Part shown: piece by piece, positions 10,701 through 22,210 of the stretch | Layout of the letters: every line of letters begins with the position of its first letter | How positions within the stretch are numbered: position 1 is the first letter of the stretch | Source of the DNA: Thermomonas sp. | GTDB lineage: Bacteria > Pseudomonadota > Gammaproteobacteria > Xanthomonadales > Xanthomonadaceae | Direction of reading: 5' to 3' | DNA length: 64,000 bases | Assembly (NCBI GenBank): GCA_016720345.1 | Contig: JADKKV010000005.1 | Span: 496,001 to 560,000 of the forward strand | Notes under the pieces: model-generated | Told to the model about the DNA's origin: nothing | What the model saw: only the letters and a program-made list of their open reading frames with translations | Database searches by the model: none | Translations under genes and position numbers: made by a program

Positions 10701-11435
10701 CTAGGACTGCGGCACCACCGGATCGCCCGCGCGTTGCGGGCAGCCCCAGTTGAGGATCGGCGTGCCGGGCGGCAGCACCCGGCGGAACATCGCCACCCGC
10801 GCCGCCTTCGGATTCACCACCACCGGCCGCCGGGCGGCCTGCAGCAGCGGCAGGTCGGCGCTGCTGTCGCTGTAGGCGATCGCCACCGGCTGGGTGTGGC
10901 CGGCTTCGCGCAGCATGGTCATCTTCATCGCGTGGTGGCAGTGGCGCAGCGCGCCGACCGCGCCGAACTTCGGCCCGACCAGGGTACCGACCACCGGCAC
11001 GTCTTCGTGGGCGACGAACGCGAGGATCGCGCGCGCCAGCTCCGGCGGCGCGCCGGTGGCGACCACCACGCGGTCGCCGGCCTCGCGATGGCGGTGCAGC
11101 ACCTGCAGCGCGACCGGCAGCAGGCGCGACCTGATCGCCCCGGCGTGCGCTTCCACGTAGCGGTCGACCAATGCATCGAGATCACGCCGGCGATGCAGGC
11201 CGACGGTCCCGATCCACACGAACACCGAGATCCCGGCGCGGCGCGTGCGCAGCCACGCCACCATCGGCCCGGCGACCGGCGCGGCCAGCAACGCCAGCAA
11301 CTGGCGCCACCAGGCGCGATCGATCAGCCACTTGAACAGGTGGCTGCCGGAATCGCCGTCGTAGAGGGTGTGGTCGAAGTCGAACACCACCAGCGGCGCG
11401 TCCAGGCGCGGCTCGGGGAAGTGCTGTCCACTCAT
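10701..11435 (-). CDS. HAD-superfamily (subfamily IB) phosphatase
   Basis: 244 residues. Motif I is [14 protein letters not shown] with the two catalytic Asp at about 19 and 21. Motif II is in [10 protein letters not shown], and motif IV is [11 protein letters not shown]. The pattern fits the IB family that includes phosphoserine and lysophosphatidic-type phosphatases. Its ATG overlaps the trpC stop by 4 bases (ATGA), so it is the last gene of the trp-cyanophycin transcription unit. A direct role in tryptophan synthesis is not evident. Confidence 0.82.
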
Positions 11436-12223
11436 TCGGCGAACAGCCCGCGCAGCGCGGTGCCCGGGTCGGGCTGGCGCATGAACGCCTCGCCGACCAG
11501 GAACGCATGCACCCCGGCGGCGCGCATCAGGGCCACGTCGGCCCGCGCGAGGATCCCGCTCTCGGTCACCAGCACCCGATCCGCGGGCACCGCGTCCTTG
11601 AGGCCGAGGGTGGCCTGCAGCGACACCTCGAAGCTGCGCAGGTTGCGGTTGTTGATCCCCAGCAGGCGCGCCGGCACCGGCAGCGCGCGCTCCAGTTCGT
11701 CGAGGTCGTGCACTTCCACCAGCACGTCCATCCCCAGCTCGCCGGCGATGAACGCGTACTCGACCAGTTGCGCGTCGTCCAGCGCCGCGGCGATCAGCAG
11801 CACGCAGTCGGCGCCCAGCACGCGCGCTTCGTACAGCTGGTACGCATCGACGACGAAGTCCTTGCGCAGTACCGGCAGCGAACACGCGGCGCGCGCGGCC
11901 AGCAGGTAGGCATCGGCGCCCTGGAAGAAGTCGACGTCGGTCAGCACCGACAGGCAGGCCGCGCCGCCAGCCTGGTAACTGCGGGCGATCGCGGCCGGAT
12001 CGAAGTCGGCGCGGATCACGCCCTTCGACGGGCTGGCCTTCTTCACTTCCGCGATCACCGCGGCATCGCCGCGCGCGATGGTTGCAACGATCGCATCGGC
12101 GAACCCGCGCGGCGGCGACGCCGATGCAGCGCGGGTCTTCAGCTCGAACAGCGAAACCTGCCCGCGGCGCTCGGCCACCTCTTCCTGCTTGCGCACCAGG
12201 ATGCGCTTGAGCACGTCATGCAT
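11432..12223 (-). CDS. trpC: Indole-3-glycerol phosphate synthase
   Basis: 263 residues, a monofunctional TIM-barrel enzyme converting CdRP to indole-3-glycerol phosphate. Catalytic segments are [18 protein letters not shown] near residue 58, [17 protein letters not shown], and [10 protein letters not shown] followed by VTESGI. It is cut off from trpD by four cyanophycin genes but keeps the same strand, 58 bases after the Mur ligase gene. A TTAAAAT at 12250-12256 is a possible internal -10 box, which would let trpC be expressed apart from the cyanophycin genes. Confidence 0.97.
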
Positions 12224-12281
12224 GTCGTTCGCCGCTCGGGGGGAGCACGATTTTAATCGAGCCCGCCGCGGTCGCGTGCAC

Positions 12282-14051
12282 TCAGGCGTCCGCGAGCCCT
12301 TGCCCCGCCCGCCAGCCCGCGGCCTGCAAGCGGTCTAGCAGGTCCACCACCACGTCGCGCCGCGCGGGTTCGTGGACCGGCAGCACCAGCAGGTCACCGG
12401 GTCGCGCCCACTGCAGGGCTTCGCACGCGGCCTGCGCCTCGTCCAGGCAGACCGGCAAGGCACCTGCGGGCAGGCCGGCCGCGCGCAAGGCGCCGAACAG
12501 GATCGCCGCGACTTCGCCCGACGCACGCCCGCGCAGGTAGTCGCCGCCGATGTCCTTCAACCAGACCCGGTCGGGCTTCGCCTCGGCGGCAACCGCCGCC
12601 AGCGCGCGGAAATCCGCCTCCAGCCGGTTGCCGGCGTGTCCCAGCAGCAAGCCCAGGCGCCCGTTCCCGCGCAAGCCCGCGGCGACCTGCAGCAGCCCGC
12701 GCAGCCCGTCCGGGTTGTGCGCGTAATCCAGCAGCACCTGCACGTCGCCCAGGGTCCAGCGCTGCAGGCGGCCGGGGTTGTCCGCGTTGCAGCCGCCGAA
12801 GCGCGCCAGTACCGAGGCGATCTTCGCCGGCGCGATGCCCAGCGCATGCGCGGCGAGGCTGGCGGCCGCGATGTTGGCGATGTTGTAGCGCGCGCTGCCG
12901 CCGAGGGTGAGCGGCATGCCTGCGATCGCGCCGAGGTCGTGTTCGATGCCATCGATGCAGAGCAGCATGCTGCCAGCACGCGCCCCGCATGCGCGCGCGC
13001 CGCGCGCCAGCGCATCGTCCAGCGCCAGCGCGAACCAGCCGATGCGGGCCACGCCGGTCGCCACCGCGCGCCGCACCAGCAACGGGTCATCGGCATTGAG
13101 CACCAGCACCCCATCCGCCGCCAGCGACTTCGCGACCACCAGCTTGACCGCGGCGATGTCGTCGAGGCCGTGGATGCCGTACTCGCCGAAGTGGTCGGCG
13201 CTGATGTTGGTGACCACCGCCACCTGCGCATCGTGCGCCACCAGGCCGCGTCGGAGCAGGCCGCCGCGCGCGGTTTCCAGCACCGCCGCCTGCACCCGCG
13301 GGTCGCGCAACACGGTGCGCGCGCCGACCGGGCCGGAATAGTCGCCGGCCGCGACCCGTTCGCCATCGACGAACAGGCCGTCGGTGCTGCTGTAGCCGGC
13401 GCGCAGGCCATGCGCACGCAGCATCGCCGCCAGCAGGCGGACCGTGGTGGTCTTGCCGTTGGAACCGGTGACAACGACTTTCGGGATCGCGCGCAGGCGC
13501 GACCACGGCACCGCATCCGCAGCCGGCAAGGCATCCAGCGCCCATGCCTGCGCGGCTTCGCCCTCGCCGATCGAGAGCAGGTCGTCGTCCGCATGCGCGG
13601 GGACGCCATGCGCACGCGCGGCCTCGACCAGCGCGCGCAGCGCCGGCTTCGCTTCCGTCGCGGCGAGCGCCTGCAACCGGCGCAGGGCGTCGGCGTCATC
13701 GAAATGGGCGACATGCGGGCGCGGCGACGCGGCTTCGTCGTCCACCGGCGCATCGGTTGCGCGGATACCGAGCGCCGAATACAGCGCCCACTCGTTCACT
13801 TCGGTGGCGACGTAGAGCTGGTCGGCCGGCGCCGCGAAGGCAAGCGATGCGCCGCTGGCATGTTCGCGCACGACGACCGCGCCCGCGGGCCAACCGAGCG
13901 TTGCCCGCGCCCGCGCGATGTTGTCGCGCCAGCGTTGCCGGGCGTCGGCATCGAATGCCAGTCCGGGCGAGGTTTCCAGCGCCGCGCCGGCGCCATCGAA
14001 GTAGAGGTTGGCGCCGGTCAGCCGGCGCGAATCCTCGAACGGTTCGCTCAC
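12282..14051 (-). CDS. Mur ligase family protein paired with cyanophycin synthetase
   Basis: 589 residues from a GTG at 14051 that is 10 bases after the cphA stop. The C-terminal two thirds is a Mur-ligase ATPase: P-loop GSNGKTTT at 196-203, then [12 protein letters not shown] and [18 protein letters not shown], closely like the third domain of CphA, with the Mur-type ENxx/DYAHNPDG segment ([15 protein letters not shown]). The N-terminal 190 residues show no ATP-grasp signature. CphA-like partner ligases have been described next to cphA in proteobacteria; whether this one adds arginine, re-uses beta-Asp-Arg dipeptide or serves another role is unknown. Confidence 0.85.
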
Positions 14052-14061
14052 GATGCGCGGC

Positions 14062-16842
14062 TCAATCGGACTCTTCGCGCTCGAAGCGCAGCCCGCGCTC
14101 GTCGCGCACCACGCCTTCCATCGCCGCGACCAGTTGCTCGTCCAGGGTGGTCTCCAGCTGCGGCACCTCGATGCGCGCGGTGGCGGCGGGCATGTCGCCA
14201 TCCGGCTTGAAGCGGATGATCTGCTTCCACGACCGGGTCAGCGCGTCCGCGAACACCAGCACCAGGTCGCCGGGCCGGCCCATGCGCAGCGCGGCGTCGA
14301 CCGCCTGCTGTTCGTCGGGGATGGCGGTGATCGCGGCCTCGGCGACGCCGGCGGCCCGCAGCGCGGTGGCGATGATCCGCGGCACCTCGTCGCCGTCGCG
14401 GCCGCGCAGGGAATCGTCGCGGCGGCAGATGTAGTGGTCGAACTTGCCGGCGACGGCATTGGCGATCTCGCGCAGGTCCTCGTCGCGGCGGTCGCCGGGG
14501 CCGGCCACCACCACGATCCTGCGGCCGGCATCCAGCCGCTGCGCAAGGTCCGCCATCACCGCCACCGCGTGGGCGTTGTGGGCGTAGTCCATGATCACCT
14601 TGAACGGGTGCTCGCTGAACACGTTCATCCGCCCCGGGGCCTGGAAGAAGGTGGTGTCGAAGGTGCGCAGGCCGTGGCGGATCGCGTCCAGCTTGATCCC
14701 CAGCGAGAACGCCATCGCCGCGGCGACCATCGCGTTCTGCACGTTGTGCATCGCGCGGCCTTCCAGGGTCGCCGGGATCAGGTGCGTCCACAGCAGCGGG
14801 ATGTGGCTGCCCTTGTCGTACAGGGTGATCATGTGGCCGTTGACGCCGGCTTCCAGCGCGCAGGCGCGGCCGCCGGCGCGGATGTGTTCGCGCACCAGCG
14901 GATGCGAGGGGTTCATGGTCACGTAGCAGATGACCTTCGCGTCGGTGTACGCGGACATCTTCATCACGTTCGGATCATCGGCGTTGAGCACCGCGCACTC
15001 GCGCGCGACTTCCACCACGATGCGCTTGACCTCGGCCAGCTGTTCGAGGGTATCGATGCCCTTCAGCCCGAGGTGGTCGGAGGCGACGTTGATCACCGCG
15101 CCGACGTCCACCTCACCCACGCCCATGCCCGAGCGCACCAGGCCGCCACGCGCGGTCTCCAGCACGGCCAGGTCGATCTGCGGGTCGGCCAGCACCATCC
15201 GCGCGGACACCGGGCCGGTCATGTCGCCTTCCACCGTTCGCGCACCGTCGATGTAGACGCCGTCGGTGGTGGTCAGGCCCGGCGTGTAGCCGGCCATCTT
15301 GGCGATGTGCGCCAGCATGCGCGCGGTCGTGGTCTTGCCGTTGGTGCCGGTCACCGCGGCGATCGGCACCCGCGACGGCGTGCCCGGCGGGAACAGCATG
15401 TCGATCACCGGGCCGGCGGCATCGCGCGGGGTGCCTTCGCTGGGCGCGATGTGCATGCGGAAGCCGGGCGCGGCATTGACCTCGCAGATGCCGCCGCCGA
15501 TCGACTTGTAGCTCTCGGCGATGTTGGTGGACAGGAAATCGACGCCGCCCACGTCCAGCCCGACCGCGCGCACCGCGCGTTCGGCCATCGCCCGGTTGTC
15601 CGGATGGATGATGTCGGTGACGTCGGTGGCGGTGCCGCCGGTGGACAGGTTGGCGGTTGAACGCAGCGGCACGGTTTCCCCGGCCGGCGGCACCGAGTCC
15701 GCGGTGTAGCCCTTGCGTTCCAGCATCAGCTCGGCCTCGCGGTCGAGCTTGAGCTTGGTCAGCACCTTTTCATGGCCGACGCCGCGGCGCGGATCGCTGT
15801 TGACCACTTCCACCAGCTCCGCGACCGTGCGCCGGCCATCGCCGACCACATGGCCGGGGGTGCGCCTGGTCGCGGCGATCAGCTCGCCATTGACCACCAG
15901 CAGGCGGTGGTCGTCGCCGGCCAGGTAGGTTTCCACGATCACCGAGCGCGAATGCTCGCGCGCGGCCTCGAAGCCGGCGCGGATCTCGTCCTCGCCGGTG
16001 ACGTTGATGGTGATGCCGCGGCCGTGGTTGCCGTTGTATGGCTTGAGCACCACCGGGCCGCCGAGCCTGCGCGCAGCCTTGAGCGCGTCGGTCTGGCTGG
16101 TCACCAGCTCCTGGCGCGGCACCGGCAGGCCGAGCGAGCCGAGGATCTTGTTGGTCTCTTCCTTGTCGCTGGCCAGCTCCACCGCGATGTGCGGGGTGCG
16201 CCCGGTGACCGTGGCCTGGATCCGCTGCTGGTACTTGCCGTGGCCGAGCTGCACCAGCGACTGCTGGTTGAGGCGCAGCCACGGGATCCCGCGCTCTTCC
16301 GCCGCACGCACCAGCGACATCGTCGATGGCCCCAGCGCGCGCCGCTGCGCATAGCGGATGAAGCCGTCGCGCTCCTCCTCCCAGTTCCAGGAATCGTCGG
16401 TGGCCGTGCGCAAATCCGCCGGCAGCAGCGAATCCAGCAACTTCAGGGCGAGTTCGCCGGCAGCGATGCCCTCCTCGCGCTGCGCGTACTCGTACACCAC
16501 CGAATACACGCCCGGGCGGTCGTCGGAAATGCTGCGGGTCTTGCCGAAGGTCACGTCCTCGCCGGCCACGTTCTGCAGTTCGATCGCGACATGCTCCAGC
16601 ACATGCCCGAGCCAGGTGCCCTCGCCCTCGCGCATGCGGCGGATGAAGCCGCCCGGCTCGCGGTACGAGCAGCCGTGCTCGCTCAGGCCCGGCAGCGCCA
16701 CCAGCAGGCCATCGATGAAACCGTTGCCGAGCTTGCCGGTGGGCCACTGCTCGAGCGCGCCGAGGTCGAGCTCGAGCCGGATCACCGGGAACTTCGCGTA
16801 GTGCGAGGGCCCGACATAGACATTGCGATTGAGGATGCGCAT
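14062..16842 (-). CDS. cphA: Cyanophycin synthetase
   Basis: 926 residues, full length. CphA polymerises aspartate and arginine into multi-L-arginyl-poly-L-aspartate, an insoluble nitrogen reserve, using two ATP-dependent sites. The N-terminal domain covers about 1-160. The ATP-grasp domain covers about 220-485 (VVLKPYNGNHGRGITINVTGEDEI, CEVNAAPGFRMH), the site for Asp addition. The Mur-ligase domain begins with the P-loop GTNGKTTT at 499-506 and continues with [16 protein letters not shown], the site for Arg addition. It lies 54 bases after cphB and runs straight into the partner Mur ligase. Confidence 0.96.
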   Translation of the reverse strand: MRILNRNVYVGPSHYAKFPVIRLELDLGALEQWPTGKLGNGFIDGLLVALPGLSEHGCSYREPGGFIRRMREGEGTWLGHVLEHVAIELQNVAGEDVTFGKTRSISDDRPGVYSVVYEYAQREEGIAAGELALKLLDSLLPADLRTATDDSWNWEEERDGFIRYAQRRALGPSTMSLVRAAEERGIPWLRLNQQSLVQLGHGKYQQRIQATVTGRTPHIAVELASDKEETNKILGSLGLPVPRQELVTSQTDALKAARRLGGPVVLKPYNGNHGRGITINVTGEDEIRAGFEAAREHSRSVIVETYLAGDDHRLLVVNGELIAATRRTPGHVVGDGRRTVAELVEVVNSDPRRGVGHEKVLTKLKLDREAELMLERKGYTADSVPPAGETVPLRSTANLSTGGTATDVTDIIHPDNRAMAERAVRAVGLDVGGVDFLSTNIAESYKSIGGGICEVNAAPGFRMHIAPSEGTPRDAAGPVIDMLFPPGTPSRVPIAAVTGTNGKTTTARMLAHIAKMAGYTPGLTTTDGVYIDGARTVEGDMTGPVSARMVLADPQIDLAVLETARGGLVRSGMGVGEVDVGAVINVASDHLGLKGIDTLEQLAEVKRIVVEVARECAVLNADDPNVMKMSAYTDAKVICYVTMNPSHPLVREHIRAGGRACALEAGVNGHMITLYDKGSHIPLLWTHLIPATLEGRAMHNVQNAMVAAAMAFSLGIKLDAIRHGLRTFDTTFFQAPGRMNVFSEHPFKVIMDYAHNAHAVAVMADLAQRLDAGRRIVVVAGPGDRRDEDLREIANAVAGKFDHYICRRDDSLRGRDGDEVPRIIATALRAAGVAEAAITAIPDEQQAVDAALRMGRPGDLVLVFADALTRSWKQIIRFKPDGDMPAATARIEVPQLETTLDEQLVAAMEGVVRDERGLRFEREESD

Positions 16843-16896
16843 CGAGCCCTCCCGCTCAAATCCGAACCTGGGTGTTTCGCGTGGTTTGCCTGGGAA

Positions 16897-17739
16897 TCAG
16901 CTCTTTTCGGTCGACAGCGCGCCCGGCGAGGCCTGGCGCGTGTGCAGGTTGAAGGTGGCACCGGCGGTCAGGATGTGCACGGTCAGCCCGAGCAGGCACA
17001 CGCCTTCGGTCTGGCGCACGTCGGCCATCGACGAGAAGGTCATGCCGCCGGCATCGACCACCGTGATCGCGCCGCTGCCTTCCACTTCCAGGGTGTTGTC
17101 CGGGCCGATGAAGGCGGCGGTGTCCTCGTCCAGGCCGATGCCGATCGCGAACGGGTTGTAGGCCAGCGCCGCGGTCAGGCGGCCAAGGCGGTCGCGCTGG
17201 CGGAAATGCTGGTCGATGATGAAGCGGTTGGTCAGGCCCAGTCCGGGCGCCAGCCGCACGCTGCCGGCGCGCGGCGAGGAGCCTTCCTTGCCGAACGCGA
17301 TCATGTGCTCGGACAGGATGCTGGCGCCGGCGCTGGTGCCGGCCACGTGCACCCCGCGCGCGTTGCCGGTGCGGATCAGCTTGGCCGCGCTGGTGCCGCC
17401 GATGATGGTGGAGATGCGCAGCTGGTTGCCGCCGGTGAAGAACACGCCGTTGGCGCCTTCCAGCTGGCGCAGGTAGTCGTCGCGCTCGCCGTCCTCGCGG
17501 GTCTGGAAGTCGATCGAGGTCGCGCTGCCCGCCTCCAGGCGCTCGAACAGGTCCTCGTAGCGCTTGCCGGTATCGGCCAGCCGGCTGGCGGTCGGGATCA
17601 CCGCGATCCGCGCGTCGCGGCCACCGCACAGCTGCACGAACCGCTTGAGGATCCGCCGCCGGCTTTCCTTGTCCTCGGCGCCGCCGATGGGAATGATCCA
17701 GCCCCGCTGCTCACCCTCGGGGACCTTGCTTGGACACAT
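16897..17739 (-). CDS. cphB: Cyanophycinase
   Basis: 280 residues, a serine exopeptidase of the S51/class-I-glutamine-amidotransferase-like fold that releases beta-Asp-Arg dipeptides from cyanophycin. The nucleophile elbow HVAGTSAGAS puts the catalytic Ser at 136, and other conserved parts are IIPIGGAEDKES, GVFFTGGNQLR and GLGLTNRFIIDQHFRQRDRLGRL. There is no signal peptide, so it is an intracellular CphB rather than a secreted CphE. It precedes cphA in the transcription unit, so synthesis and breakdown enzymes are co-transcribed. Confidence 0.95.
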   Translation of the reverse strand: MCPSKVPEGEQRGWIIPIGGAEDKESRRRILKRFVQLCGGRDARIAVIPTASRLADTGKRYEDLFERLEAGSATSIDFQTREDGERDDYLRQLEGANGVFFTGGNQLRISTIIGGTSAAKLIRTGNARGVHVAGTSAGASILSEHMIAFGKEGSSPRAGSVRLAPGLGLTNRFIIDQHFRQRDRLGRLTAALAYNPFAIGIGLDEDTAAFIGPDNTLEVEGSGAITVVDAGGMTFSSMADVRQTEGVCLLGLTVHILTAGATFNLHTRQASPGALSTEKS

Positions 17740-17766
17740 GCGCGACGCTTCCTGGGCTTGCTGCGA

Positions 17767-18939
17767 TCAGCGCTCGAACATACCACGGCGCACCACCTCG
17801 CCCGCCCGCAGGTGGGCGATCCCGCCCAGCCAGACGTGACCGGCCGCACCGTTCGCGTCCAGCGCCAGCAGGTCGGCATCCATGCCTGCCCGGATCCGGC
17901 CCTTGCCCGGCAGCCGCAGCAGGTCCGCCACGTTGCTTGTGAAGGCGGGCAGCACGCGTTCCAGCGGCAGGCCGCGGGCCAGCAAAGCATTCAGGGTCTC
18001 CAGCAGGGCGCCGGAGTGGCCCACGTCCATGCCGCAGACACGGCCATGCGCATCGAAGCAGGGCAGGCAGCCGCCGGCGTCGGAGCTGATGCTGACCCGC
18101 TCCGCCGGCGCGCCGCTGTCCAGGTAGCGCACCAGCGCCTCGTCGGCGGGCCAGGCGTCTTCGCCCTCCTCGACCGGGAACGCGGTGATGTCGACATGGC
18201 AGCCACGCTTCGCCAGTGCGAGCGCTTCCTCGAACAAGGCCTTCCTGCGGTTCACATGCGTCGGCTGGAACACCCGCGGCGGCAGTTCGCTGGTGTCCAG
18301 CGCCTGCCGCACCAGTTCCAGCCCGCGCGGGCCATCGCCGAGGTGCAGGTGGACGATGCCGGCCTTGCCGGTCATCAGCCCGGCCACGTGCGCCTCGGAT
18401 GCCAGCCGCAGCACGTCGTCCAGCGTTGGTTGGCTGGAACGGTGGTCGCTGATCGCCACTTCGCCCACGCCGATCAGCGCATCGCTGAACACGATGTCGC
18501 CGCGCACGCTGCCGGTCAGCGTGGTCGGCGGGATGTGGTAGCCGCCGCAATACGCCCACGCGCCGAGGCCCTGCTCGCGCAGCGCGTACACATGCGAAAG
18601 CAGCTCGCTGGTGCCGCGCGAGACATCGTCGGTGCCGAGCAGGCCAATGACCGTGGTCACCCCGGCGCTGGTGTAGCGCGACAGCAGCGGCGCCGGCACC
18701 CGGCTGGCGAAGCCGGCTTCGCCGCCACCACCGCTGGCGTGGACGTGGCCGTCGATGAAGCCGGGGAGCAGGCGCGCGCCTTCGAGATCGATGGTTTCGA
18801 CGCCGAGCGCTTCCGGCAATCCGGGCCCGGACCCGCCCATCCACAACACCTTGCCGCCACCCAGCAACAGGTGGCGACGGCCCAGCGGTTCCGGCGCGTA
18901 CACGTCGGCATTGCGCAGCAGCAGCAGGGGCGCGGTCAT
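17767..18939 (-). CDS. iadA: Isoaspartyl dipeptidase
   Basis: 390 residues from the ATG at 18939, exactly the E. coli IadA length. An amidohydrolase that splits beta-aspartyl dipeptides; here it would hydrolyse the beta-Asp-Arg made by CphB. Metal ligands are visible in GFIDGHVHASGGGGE (His65, His67), ISDHRS, PTHVNRR and SSDAGG. Where E. coli has the carboxylated bridging Lys162 (in GVKCAISDHRS), this protein has Glu160 (GVGEVAISDHRS). Some amidohydrolases use Glu in this place, so it is probably active. It is 27 bases before cphB and 31 after trpD. Confidence 0.92.
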   Translation of the reverse strand: MTAPLLLLRNADVYAPEPLGRRHLLLGGGKVLWMGGSGPGLPEALGVETIDLEGARLLPGFIDGHVHASGGGGEAGFASRVPAPLLSRYTSAGVTTVIGLLGTDDVSRGTSELLSHVYALREQGLGAWAYCGGYHIPPTTLTGSVRGDIVFSDALIGVGEVAISDHRSSQPTLDDVLRLASEAHVAGLMTGKAGIVHLHLGDGPRGLELVRQALDTSELPPRVFQPTHVNRRKALFEEALALAKRGCHVDITAFPVEEGEDAWPADEALVRYLDSGAPAERVSISSDAGGCLPCFDAHGRVCGMDVGHSGALLETLNALLARGLPLERVLPAFTSNVADLLRLPGKGRIRAGMDADLLALDANGAAGHVWLGGIAHLRAGEVVRRGMFER

Positions 18940-18970
18940 CGCGGCAGGGTGCGGCGCGTGGATGGCAGCG

Positions 18971-20005
18971 TCAAGCGCCCGCCAGCGCCTGCGTGGTGGC
19001 GACGAATTCGTCCAGCTTCGCGGCCGCCGCGCCGGACGCGATCGCATTGCGCGCGCGCAGGATGCCGTCGCCGATGTCGCTGGCCACGCCCGCCGCGTAC
19101 AGCGCCGCGCCTGCGTTGTAGGCGACGATCTCGCGCGGCAGGCACTCGCGGTTGTCCAGCGCCTGGCGCAGCAGGTCCATCGATTCGGTGGCGTTCTCGA
19201 CCCGCAGGTTGCGGCTGTGCGCCATCGCGATGCCGAAGTCCTCGGGATGCAGTTCGTATTCGCGGACCACGCCATCGCGCAGCTCGCCGACCAGGGTGCC
19301 GGCGCCCAGCGAGAGCTCGTCCATGCCGTCGCGGCCCCACACCACCAGCGCGCGCTGCGCGCCGAGTTCCTGCAGCACGCGCACCTGGATGCCGACCAGG
19401 TCCGGATGGAACACGCCCATCAGGATGCCGGGGGCATTGGCCGGATTGGTCAGCGGGCCAAGGATGTTGAACAGCGTGCGCACGCCCATCTCGCGCCGCA
19501 CCGGCGCCACCACCTTCATCGCCGGGTGGTGGACGGGGGCGAACATGAAGCCGATCCCGCAGCGCTCGATGCAGGCCGCGACCTGCCCCGGCTGCAGCTC
19601 GATGTTGGCGCCCAGCGCTTCCAGCACGTCGGCGCTGCCCGACTTCGACGACACGCTGCGGTTGCCGTGCTTGGCGACCTTGCCACCGGCCGCCGCCACC
19701 ACGAACATGCTCGCGGTGGAGATGTTGAAGGTGTGCGCGCCATCGCCGCCGGTGCCGACGATGTCGACCAGGTGCGTGCGGTCGGCGACGTCGACCGGAC
19801 GCGCGAATTCGCGCAGCACGGTCGCCGCGGCGGCGATCTCGCCGACGGTTTCCTTCTTCACCCGCAGCCCGGTGAGGATCGCCGCGGTCATGACCGGCGA
19901 AACCTCGCCGCGCATGACCTGGCGCATCAGCTCGACCATTTCGTCGAAGAAGATCTCGCGGTGCTCGATGGCGCGCTGCAGCGCGTCCTGCGGGGTGAAG
20001 GGCAT
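18971..20005 (-). CDS. trpD: Anthranilate phosphoribosyltransferase
   Basis: 344 residues, the normal monofunctional TrpD. It joins anthranilate to PRPP. The PRPP loop [22 protein letters not shown], the [21 protein letters not shown] segment and [32 protein letters not shown] are conserved. It follows trpG after 4 bases, indicating translational coupling, and is followed by iadA rather than the expected trpC. Confidence 0.97.
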
Positions 20006-20009
20006 CGGG

Positions 20010-20588
20010 TCAGCGCTCCAGGAAGTTCTTCAGCAGCGCGTGGCCGTGCTGGGTCAGGATGGATTCGGGATGGAACTGCACGCCTTCGACCGGATGCCCG
20101 CGATGGCGCAGGCCCATGATCGCCTCCATCGAACCGTCGTCGTTCTCGGTCCACGCGGTGATTTCCAGCGCATCCGGGAGCGTGGCCTTGTCCACCACCA
20201 GCGAGTGGTAGCGGGTGGCCTCAAAGCCGTCCGGCAGGCCGGCGAACACGCCCTTGCCCTGGTGGCGGATGCGCGAGGTCTTGCCATGCATGATCTTGCC
20301 CGCGCGCACCACGTCGCCGCCGTAGACCTGGCCGATGCTCTGGTGGCCCAGGCACACGCCGAGGATCGGCGTGGTCGCGCCCAGGCGCTCGACCACCGCC
20401 ATCGACACCCCTGCCTCGTTCGGCGTGCACGGCCCGGGCGAGATCACGATGCGTTCCGGCGCCAGCCGCTCGATCTCGTCCACCGTCAGCGCATCGTTGC
20501 GCTCCACCCGCACCTCCGCGCCCAGCGACTGCAGGTACTGGACGAGGTTCCAGGTGAAGGAGTCGTAGTTGTCGATCATCAGCAGCAC
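20010..20588 (-). CDS. trpG: Anthranilate/aminodeoxychorismate synthase glutamine amidotransferase subunit
   Basis: 192 residues, a class I glutamine amidotransferase supplying ammonia to TrpE. The triad is visible: Cys79 in [13 protein letters not shown], and the His-Glu pair in GVQFHPESI near residue 172. Also seen are [11 protein letters not shown] and RYHSLVV. In many bacteria the same subunit also serves folate synthesis (PabA). The start is one base after the trpE stop. Confidence 0.95.
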
Positions 20589-20589
20589 G

Positions 20590-22080
20590 TCACAACCCCT
20601 TCGCCGCTTCGGCCACCGCGCGGAACAGCGCGCGGCCCTTGTTCATGGTCTCGTCCCACTCGGCCTGCGGGTCGGAGTCGTAGACGATGCCGGCACCGGC
20701 CTGCACGTGCAGGCGGCCGTCCTGGATCACCGCGGTGCGGATGGCGATGGCGGTGTCGGCGTCGCCGTGCCAGCCGATGTAGCCGACCGCGCCGGAGTAG
20801 ATGTTGCGCTTGACCGGTTCCAGCTCGCGGATGATCTGCAGCGCGCGGATCTTCGGCGCGCCGCTGACGGTGCCGGCGGGGAAGGTGGCGCGCAGCACGT
20901 CCATGTAGGACAGGCCCTGCTTCAGGCGGCCGGTGACTTCGCTGACGATGTGCATGACGTGGCTGTAGCGTTCGATCACGAACTGCTCGCCCACCACCAC
21001 CGTGCCCGGCTCGGACACGCGGCCGGCATCGTTGCGGCCAAGGTCGATCAGCATCAGGTGCTCGGCGCGCTCCTTCGGGTCGGCCAGCAACTCGGCTTCC
21101 AGCGCCAGGTCTTCCTCGTGGGTCCGGCCGCGCGGGCGGGTGCCGGCGATCGGGCGCACGGTGACTTCGCCCCCGCCGTCAACGGTATGTTGCAGGCGGA
21201 CCAGGATCTCCGGCGAGGAACCGACCACCTGGGTCGCGCCGGTATCCAGGAAATACATGTACGGCGACGGATTCGTCGCCCGCAGCGCGCGGTACACGTC
21301 CACCGGGCGCGCGCGGAACGGCACGCTCAGGCGCTGGCTGAGCACCACCTGGAAGGCATCGCCGGATGCGATGTACTGCTTGCTGCGATGGACCGCCTCG
21401 ATGAAGCCCTCGCGGGTGAAGCCGCTGACGAAATCGGCCTCGTCGAGGGCGTTGCCGTGCAGGGTTTCCGGATAGCCGCGCCCGGCCTGGCGCAGGCGGT
21501 GCGCCAGCGCATCCAGCCGCCGCTGCGCGCGCGCCCACGCCTGCGGCTGGCGCGGGTCGGCGTGCACGATCAGGTACAGCCGGCCCTTGAGGTTGTCGAA
21601 CACCGCCAGTTCCTCGCTGAGCATCAGCAGGATGTCGGGCGTGCCGAGTTCGTCCGGCAGCGGGTTCGCGCGCAGGCATGGCTCGATGTATTCGATGCAC
21701 TCGAAGCCGAACCAGCCCACCAGCCCGCCTGAAAAGCCGGGCAGGCCGTCCAGCTTCGGCACCCGGTAGTGCGCGCGCAGGCGTTCGACCTCGGCCAGCG
21801 GATCGTCGAGTTCGCGGGTCTCCACGACTTCGCCGTGCTCGCGCACCTGCAGCGCGTGGCCGCGCACCTCGTACACCCGCCGCGCCGGCAGGCCGATGAT
21901 CGAATAGCGGCCGAAGCGCTCGCCGCCCTCCACCGATTCGAACAGGTAGGTGTGCGGGCCGTCGGCCAGCTTCAGGTAGACCGACAGCGGGGTGTCGAGG
22001 TCGGACAGGACCTCGCGCACGACCGGGATCAGGGTATGGCCGTCAGCGGCGTGCTGGTCGAACTGGGCGTGCGTGATCAA
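20590..22080 (-). CDS. trpE: Anthranilate synthase component I
   Basis: 496 residues, the chorismate-using subunit of anthranilate synthase. It begins at a TTG (22080) with AAGGA about 8 bases upstream. The feedback-site motif LLES in relatives appears as [18 protein letters not shown] near residue 50. The catalytic core shows DPSPYMYFL-type [20 protein letters not shown], the [17 protein letters not shown] segment and [15 protein letters not shown]. The candidate leader peptide ending at 22043 overlaps its first 38 bases, which suggests translation-linked control. Confidence 0.97.
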
Positions 22081-22174
22081 GCGGGGTGTCCTTCATGGGC
22101 ATGGGAGCGACCTGGGCGGCGGAATCTCGCCACCATCGCCAACCCTGTTCGAAAGACGGAATCGCCCGGTTCAT
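22043..22174 (-). CDS. trpL: Candidate trp leader peptide with Trp-Arg-Trp-Trp
   Basis: A 43-residue frame starting at the ATG at 22174 carries QGWRWWRDS, with three TGG codons in four positions (22130-22141). It lies directly upstream of trpE, and its stop at 22043 falls 38 bases inside trpE. The promoter is placed so the message starts at the ATG. A hairpin GGTGGCG-AGATTC-CGCCGCC, with one G-U pair, overlaps the tandem Trp codons. I find no intrinsic terminator before trpE, so ordinary attenuation is not supported. Control by ribosome stalling or reinitiation is an inference. Confidence 0.65.
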
Positions 22175-22180
22175 GCGCCA

Positions 22181-22210
22181 ACTGTAGCCGCCGCGGGCGG
22201 GCTTCGGCAA
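22181..22210 (-). promoter_or_regulatory. Promoter of the trp-cyanophycin operon
   Basis: On the minus strand TTGCCG (22205-22210) and TACAGT (22181-22186) are 18 bases apart. The -10 box ends 6 bases before the leader peptide ATG at 22174, so the transcript should be leaderless for trpL. I see no second promoter of this quality before trpE. Confidence 0.6.

Follow-up and report, generated by a model that had tools for sequence, protein, structure and literature searches.

We analyzed a 64,000-nucleotide (nt) stretch of the Thermomonas sp. genome (GenBank assembly GCA_016720345.1, contig JADKKV010000005.1, positions 496,001 to 560,000; hereafter the window, with positions counted from its first base), in which genes for the storage polymer cyanophycin lie inside a tryptophan (trp) operon. 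All genes of the locus are on the minus strand, in the order rpe, trpL-trpE-trpG-trpD, iadA-cphB-cphA-CphA-like Mur ligase and trpC-HAD. Apart from rpe, this arrangement had been described in an earlier note made from the sequence alone, and both coordinates and family models agree with it. The spacings, which the note had put at up to 58 nt, were also borne out: 1 nt between trpE and trpG, 4 nt between trpG and trpD, 31 nt between trpD and iadA, 27 nt between iadA and cphB, 54 nt between cphB and cphA, 10 nt between cphA and the Mur ligase gene, and 58 nt between the latter and trpC, with trpC and the HAD gene sharing a 4-nt ATGA overlap. The genes were assigned as follows:

20590..22080, minus strand: trpE, TTG start; TIGR00564, 549 bits, above the curated cut-off
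20010..20588, minus strand: trpG; above cut-off only for the subfamily model TIGR00566
18971..20005, minus strand: trpD; TIGR01245, 416 bits, above cut-off; final sense codon GCT, stop codon TGA within the -35 hexamer of the candidate promoter PiadA described below
17767..18939, minus strand: iadA, isoaspartyl dipeptidase; TIGR01975, 365 bits, above cut-off
16897..17739, minus strand: cphB, cyanophycinase; TIGR02069, 251 bits, above cut-off
14062..16842, minus strand: cphA, cyanophycin synthetase; TIGR02068, 1119 bits against a cut-off of 850
12282..14051, minus strand: stand-alone Mur ligase; similarity to the CphA model confined to the C-terminal half of that model, 315 bits against the cut-off of 850
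11432..12223, minus strand: trpC; NF001373, 402 bits, above cut-off
10701..11435, minus strand: HAD-IB phosphatase; below the TIGR01490 cut-off, above the Pfam cut-off for PF12710

All four cyanophycin-type genes are intact open frames, with the cyanophycinase and isoaspartyl dipeptidase genes adjacent to cphA, and by these family models the cluster is a cyanophycin synthesis and degradation gene set. CphA carries PF18921, RimK/ATP-grasp, Mur_ligase_M and Mur_ligase_C domains. The nearest solved chain to the window IadA is 8dqn, with which it has an IGVGE-AISDHRSSQP stretch in common. The genome (2.66 Mb in 7 contigs) contains a single full cphA; the Mur ligase gene comes next at 39% identity, ahead of three weak matches at 26-29%. 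An Rfam scan found two tRNAs and nothing else.

We compared the trpD-trpC interval across 296 genomes of the family, from 54 genera, as the earlier note had proposed. A cphA match (E <= 1e-50) was found in 73 of these genomes and 21 of the 54 genera, and 72 of the 73 were read at the locus, G240 with only a fragment being left out. We scored clusters as trp-linked when trpG, trpD or trpC lay on the same strand within the stretch read, whose flanks were mostly ~8.5 kb per side and in some cases shorter. The cyanophycin genes are trp-linked in 24 genomes including that of the window, unlinked within the flanks read in 43, and at contig ends in 5. Linkage recurs in several genera: by genus label (the labels do not match published names throughout) it is found in 8 of 11 genomes of the window’s genus, all 8 of g16 (Lysobacter), all 4 of g29 (Luteimonas), 2 of the 5 in g47 (Lysobacter tolerans and kin), and the single genomes of g38 and g13. 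Embedding of cyanophycin genes in the trp operon is not a one-genome oddity. Four further species named Luteimonas (loci L134, L142, L147 and L148) have the cluster away from trp, and no trp genes were found in the flanks of 14 loci from Rhodanobacter, Dyella and Dokdonella (among the best 80 of 359 loci, some with short flanks).

Many relatives (e.g. L006, L016 and L077) have a small PF03992 (antibiotic biosynthesis monooxygenase, ABM) gene in the trpD-trpC joint, identified by Pfam in L006 and L016 and by a motif test elsewhere. Seven of the eight genomes of the window’s genus that lack a main-type cphA could be read at this joint: trpD and trpC overlap by 4 nt in three, are 32-33 nt apart in three, and are 342 nt apart, with an ABM gene between, in one. 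The three unlinked genomes among the 11 of this genus (G051, G081 and G212; loci L069, L070 and L071) encode two adjacent, divergent CphA-like genes with 38-45% identity to the window CphA, and the stretch read around each pair contains no trp gene. Three other genomes (G046, G248 and G034) keep cyanophycin genes, and searches for trpD and trpC found nothing there; a trpE search returned only matches of 39-45% identity. We searched for trpE in ten g47 and g35 genomes, most of them without a trpD match, and seven, G046, G248 and G034 among them, gave only matches in this identity range, which we take for pabB-like genes.

At the trpD-iadA joint we identified a promoter-like element that runs into the end of trpD:

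18946..18974, minus strand: candidate promoter PiadA, TTGACG (18974-18969), a 17-base spacer and CACCCT (18951-18946), 6 nt 5' of the iadA ATG

Joints shorter than 60 nt between trpD and iadA occur in 13 distinct loci; the gap is 31 nt in 11, 32 nt in L088, and in L008 59 nt as scripted, or 32 nt from an upstream in-frame ATG. All 13 share TTGAC, a G or C, 17 bases (18 in L088), CANNCT, 6-7 bases and the iadA ATG. In each, the TGA within TTGAC is the trpD stop codon, set in the context gcTTGAcg in the window lineage (Thermomonas, and g47 with Lysobacter tolerans). The last trpD codon ends in T and is followed by TGA-C in every one of the 13 short-joint loci, compared with one of the 28 other distinct trpD genes (L080, which lacks cph genes), and T accounts for 5.8% of trpD third positions; the short-joint loci are related, and these counts are not independent trials. 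Read this way, the promoter-like element carries a visible coding cost at the trpD end.

The element is also found where no trpD precedes it. From clusters that do not follow trpD, we picked 18 for a TTGAC placed exactly at -35 from the A of the iadA ATG; these come from Rhodanobacter, Dyella, some Luteimonas, Lysobacter silvestris and kin, and Pseudofulvimonas. All 18 carry CANNCT at -12 to -7 and G at -30, with varying spacer and upstream bases. Because TTGAC was fixed by the picking, only the -10 hexamer counts as an independent part. The presence of the same element before iadA in these clusters indicates that it belongs to the cyanophycin cluster and not to trpD. The iadA motif is also retained in G046 and G248 (L011 and L012). 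Hexamers at -35 and at -12 to -7 from the A of the ATG predict a leaderless iadA mRNA, and no Shine-Dalgarno-like run is visible upstream of iadA in the window. The full pattern occurs once in the window, against 0.02 expected, and twice in the whole genome. The sole other match in this genome (L190, G000:C6:75854-75891) reads TTGACAGC...CATACT...ATG; it probably marks another leaderless gene, and its form recurs in 13 of 21 genomes of the genus searched.

The opposite edge of the cluster also carries a conserved element:

12250..12255, minus strand: candidate -10 hexamer of PtrpC, TAAAAT, 32 nt 5' of the trpC start; no clear -35 hexamer seen

The earlier note had pointed to TTAAAAT near 12250 as a possible internal promoter; the sequence is present, and it coincides with an element, TA(A/G)AAT, that lies at or after the end of the Mur ligase gene in all 11 distinct loci of the window lineage. 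The element is 32-45 nt 5' of trpC or, where an ABM gene intervenes, 371-378 nt 5' of trpC and ahead of ABM. It was found in none of 15 distinct Lysobacter- and Luteimonas-type loci, none of nine trpC upstream regions from loci without cph genes, and nowhere in coding sequence read in the sense direction (746,895 nt, with redundant loci counted in). Three of the 11 loci (L007, L013 and L092) provide a second instance at the locus of a stop codon that shares bases with a promoter-like hexamer.

Upstream of the trp genes lie two further features:

22181..22210, minus strand: candidate promoter PtrpL, TTGCCG-N18-TACAGT, 6 nt 5' of the trpL ATG, read from the sequence
22043..22174, minus strand: trpL leader open reading frame, 43 aa, GWRWW motif, ending 38 nt into trpE

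A WRWW leader was found in 23 of 27 locus rows (duplicates included), with its stop codon 35-50 nt into trpE. In 19 distinct leaders from Thermomonas, Lysobacter, Luteimonas and kin, the leader overlaps trpE, with the stop codon mostly 38 nt inside. The leaders are apparently leaderless themselves, and relatives also have a TACAGT-like element shortly upstream of the trpL start. The Trp-rich peptide of an attenuator is present; a scan found no intrinsic terminator between trpL and trpE, and the 19 leaders have no T-run longer than 4 between a point shortly before the Trp codons and 45 nt into trpE. Their computed consensus structure has a hairpin enclosing the Trp codons. The overlap with trpE and the lack of a longer T-run point to translational control: trpL looks like a regulator of trpE translation, not a terminator-type attenuator of the whole operon, and its control would reach the cyanophycin genes only through polarity. 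A pattern search for the Trp codon run TGGCGNTGGTGG was dropped, as it matched in all 296 genomes, and we found no literature match combining trp operon, attenuation, leader peptide and Xanthomonas.

Other lineages are organized differently. Where trp-linked loci lack iadA (g29 and further Luteimonas-type loci, G037 and G012), TGNTANNNT is present 39-101 nt 5' of cphB in all 10 distinct cases; the coding sequence set of 746,895 nt contains 10 matches to this pattern. Matches to it in five Lysobacter loci lie inside ABM coding sequence and were discounted as promoters. In all eight distinct Lysobacter (g16) loci, iadA, read from a candidate start, shares 8 nt with the ABM gene (ATGARTRA; the script had chosen a later iadA start in L019, L033, L035 and L037). 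Five of these loci have a 4-nt overlap between the Mur ligase gene and trpC, and the other three a 3-nt gap; each g16 genome has one trpC match. In Luteimonas-type loci the Mur ligase-trpC distance ranges from -4 to 26 nt. The overlapping stop and start codons suggest that the trp and cyanophycin genes of Lysobacter form a truly merged operon, and that its trpC could depend on transcription through the cyanophycin genes.

The position of the cluster within the trp genes is not constant. In 26 distinct embedded loci, it precedes ABM in 4 and follows it in 12, and ABM is absent from 10; loci without cph genes read trpD-ABM-trpC in two cases and trpD-trpC in seven. In L116 (UBA2363), the cluster is directly upstream of trpGDC. 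We dropped an initial reading of L116 as a trpE-trpG insertion, since the interval from trpE to iadA contains opposite-strand frames that seem to encode an acyltransferase and a helix-turn-helix regulator; only the adjacency to trpGDC is claimed. Occurrence on either side of ABM, together with L116, suggests more than one arrival unless ABM itself moved. For most genus groups, a TrpD+TrpC tree (36 rows) and a CphA tree (27 rows) are in agreement. L007 conflicts: its TrpD+TrpC group with L084, which lacks cph genes (100/100), and its CphA falls inside the Thermomonas clade, indicating that the cluster has passed between relatives.

The stand-alone Mur ligase gene follows cphA in most clusters with the flank read, L067 and L069-L071 being exceptions. 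Its GxNGKTT motif is invariant in 47 aligned sequences, including that of the window. The N-terminal region (~185 aa) is without a family assignment and has no detectable kinship to the CphA N-terminal region (hhalign probability 0.1%). The protein is possibly a partner ligase of CphA. The window cphB shows 88-89% identity to its counterparts in L013 and L026 and only 65-66% to those in L006, L008 and L009, whose CphA proteins are 91-92% identical to the window CphA; this contrast marks the cluster as a mosaic.

We consider it probable that iadA-cphB-cphA-Mur ligase is an autonomous cyanophycin cassette within the trp operon, with promoters at both edges and perhaps some read-through. The cassette would have been inserted between trpD and trpC, and its sigma70-like promoter, TTGAC-N17-CANNCT, would start transcription at the A of the iadA ATG and give a leaderless mRNA. 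In the window lineage, the -35 hexamer of this promoter would share bases with the trpD stop codon, and trpC, or ABM and trpC, would be driven by another promoter located where the Mur ligase gene ends. The old trp operon would then be split into three functional units, possibly joined by read-through, with the storage genes governed chiefly by their own promoter, not by tryptophan, and some share coming from PtrpL. Promoter function, leaderless translation and relative promoter strength are what we infer here from motif position and conservation.

Several observations weigh against this reading. A consensus promoter scan called nothing in the region, not even before trpL; we set the promoter and terminator scans aside as uninformative at 70% G+C, where the latter gave one terminator-like site, inside cphA, against 4.3 in shuffled sequence. 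TTGACG with a 17-base spacer is good, but CACCCT agrees with TATAAT only at A2 and T6, and CANNCT is a poor -10 hexamer; the scan did not call the element. Across 21 genomes of the genus, the full pattern has 34 matches against 14 for a reversed control, so single matches may be due to chance. TTGAC is missing at -35 in 39 of 71 distinct iadA upstream regions; 12 of these 39 have TANNNT 4-9 nt 5' of the annotated start, and most of the others have neither. The eight Lysobacter (g16) loci have no such element between trpD and iadA outside coding sequence. At the other edge, in L007, L013 and L092, the Mur ligase stop codon supplies the first three bases of TA(A/G)AAT, part of which is therefore fixed for another reason. 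Finally, the scan found no terminator at the trpD-iadA joint, where trp read-through could dominate, or at the Mur ligase-trpC joint. The 31-nt gap, in which the earlier note had looked to a promoter plus a terminator as the sign of separate units, thus holds a promoter-like element and, by scan, no terminator.

The earlier note had proposed that one transcript from PtrpL, the only good promoter it saw, carries trpEGD, the cyanophycin genes and trpC, so that storage follows tryptophan demand. Shared strand, short gaps and terminator-free joints fit this proposal, as do the Lysobacter overlaps between iadA and ABM and between the Mur ligase gene and trpC, which are expected of a merged operon. 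The embedding itself holds and recurs across genera. Control by a single promoter is not supported for the window lineage, where conserved promoter-like elements stand at both cassette edges; the cluster is retained in G046, G248 and G034, where trpD and trpC were not found; and trpL overlaps trpE without a terminator. We regard a single tryptophan-driven unit as unlikely, and dependence of storage on tryptophan demand, which is disfavored in the window lineage, may hold in Lysobacter. We think it very unlikely that TTGAC-N17-CANNCT is instead a non-promoter DNA or RNA element, such as a regulator site or an iadA translation signal. All 29 sequences of exact spacing have C at both -12 and -8, which is unusual for a -10 hexamer and would suit such an element. 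On the other hand, the spacing fits -35 and -10 hexamers for a start at the ATG, and TANNNT lies 4-9 nt before the start in the 12 of 39 other distinct iadA upstream regions noted above, against 56 of 13,949 internal ATGs (4 of 43 rows that repeated TTGAC-class loci were dropped, none of them a match, leaving 39).

Neutral hitch-hiking is compatible with an autonomous cassette, and we give it a little less than an even chance: the trpD-trpC joint would tolerate insertions, and the distribution would reflect descent and exchange without regulatory meaning. The ABM gene occupies the same joint, trpE-trpG gaps are variable, and the L007 conflict shows a cassette that moved. In a CphA-wide tree of 120 rows, a single clade of 59 takes in all 32 that are trp-linked, with at least 8 label changes (6 forced) against a shuffle mean of 28.6, and the TrpD+TrpC and CphA trees give 4 against 8.1. 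The CphA-wide tree skips six loci with partial CphA and includes identical proteins once; counting cut-contig rows as unlinked inflates its number of changes, and we therefore dropped it as a count of insertions. Against hitch-hiking alone, the cassette occurs both before and after ABM and, in L116, ahead of trpGDC, which goes beyond one chance landing, again unless ABM moved.

The locus is one case of a full nitrogen-storage cycle that is found nested, in several genera and repeatedly, within an operon for amino-acid synthesis. With an autonomous cassette, such nesting would be made regulatorily safe by a -35 hexamer that shares bases with the trpD stop codon and constrains the last trpD codon. 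Thermomonas, with separate elements for the cassette and for trpC, would contrast with the merged operon of Lysobacter. A more speculative view, which we hold doubtful, is that the union of trp and cyanophycin genes was selected and not accidental, with repeated entry, trpC chained to the cluster in Lysobacter and part of Luteimonas, and the bond loosened in Thermomonas by the edge promoters. If so, trpC of Lysobacter (and, on the trpC side, of part of Luteimonas) would be readable only through cyanophycin transcripts, and tryptophan prototrophy and nitrogen storage would be genetically chained. The claim of a single good promoter gives way to a scan that calls none and a comparison that reveals conserved elements at both cassette edges; short same-strand gaps alone do not establish co-regulation.

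Among the matches listed in our literature search, none linked cyanophycin genes to a trp operon by title or start of abstract; subscription literature is thinly covered there, which leaves the case for novelty weak. In E. coli, a promoter inside the trp operon (P2), located at the far end of trpD, makes expression of later genes independent of the trp promoter. The window likewise has a candidate promoter at the trpD end that would free later genes; it differs in that the trpD stop codon lies within the -35 hexamer, the promoter would have come with the inserted cassette, and a further element precedes trpC.

Non-trp genes within trp operons have been described as possible passengers or possible pathway aids (PMC2395257). 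Cases described there likewise have unrelated genes between trp genes, at trpB-trpA or trpF-trpB, whereas the window has a four-gene storage pathway at trpD-trpC; the text of that paper does not mention cyanophycin. In Lysobacter capsici AZ78, cphB is directly followed by cphA (PMC4742617), the same cyanophycinase-synthetase order as in the window, and the text on this strain has no mention of trp or tryptophan. Closest in content are the cphA1-cphB-iadA clusters, in which the synthetase, cyanophycinase and isoaspartyl dipeptidase genes are adjacent (PMC10206079, whose main text does not mention trp or tryptophan). The window shares this adjacency, and its IadA is nearest to 8dqn; compared with the clusters described there, it adds a terminal CphA-like Mur ligase and nesting within the trp operon.

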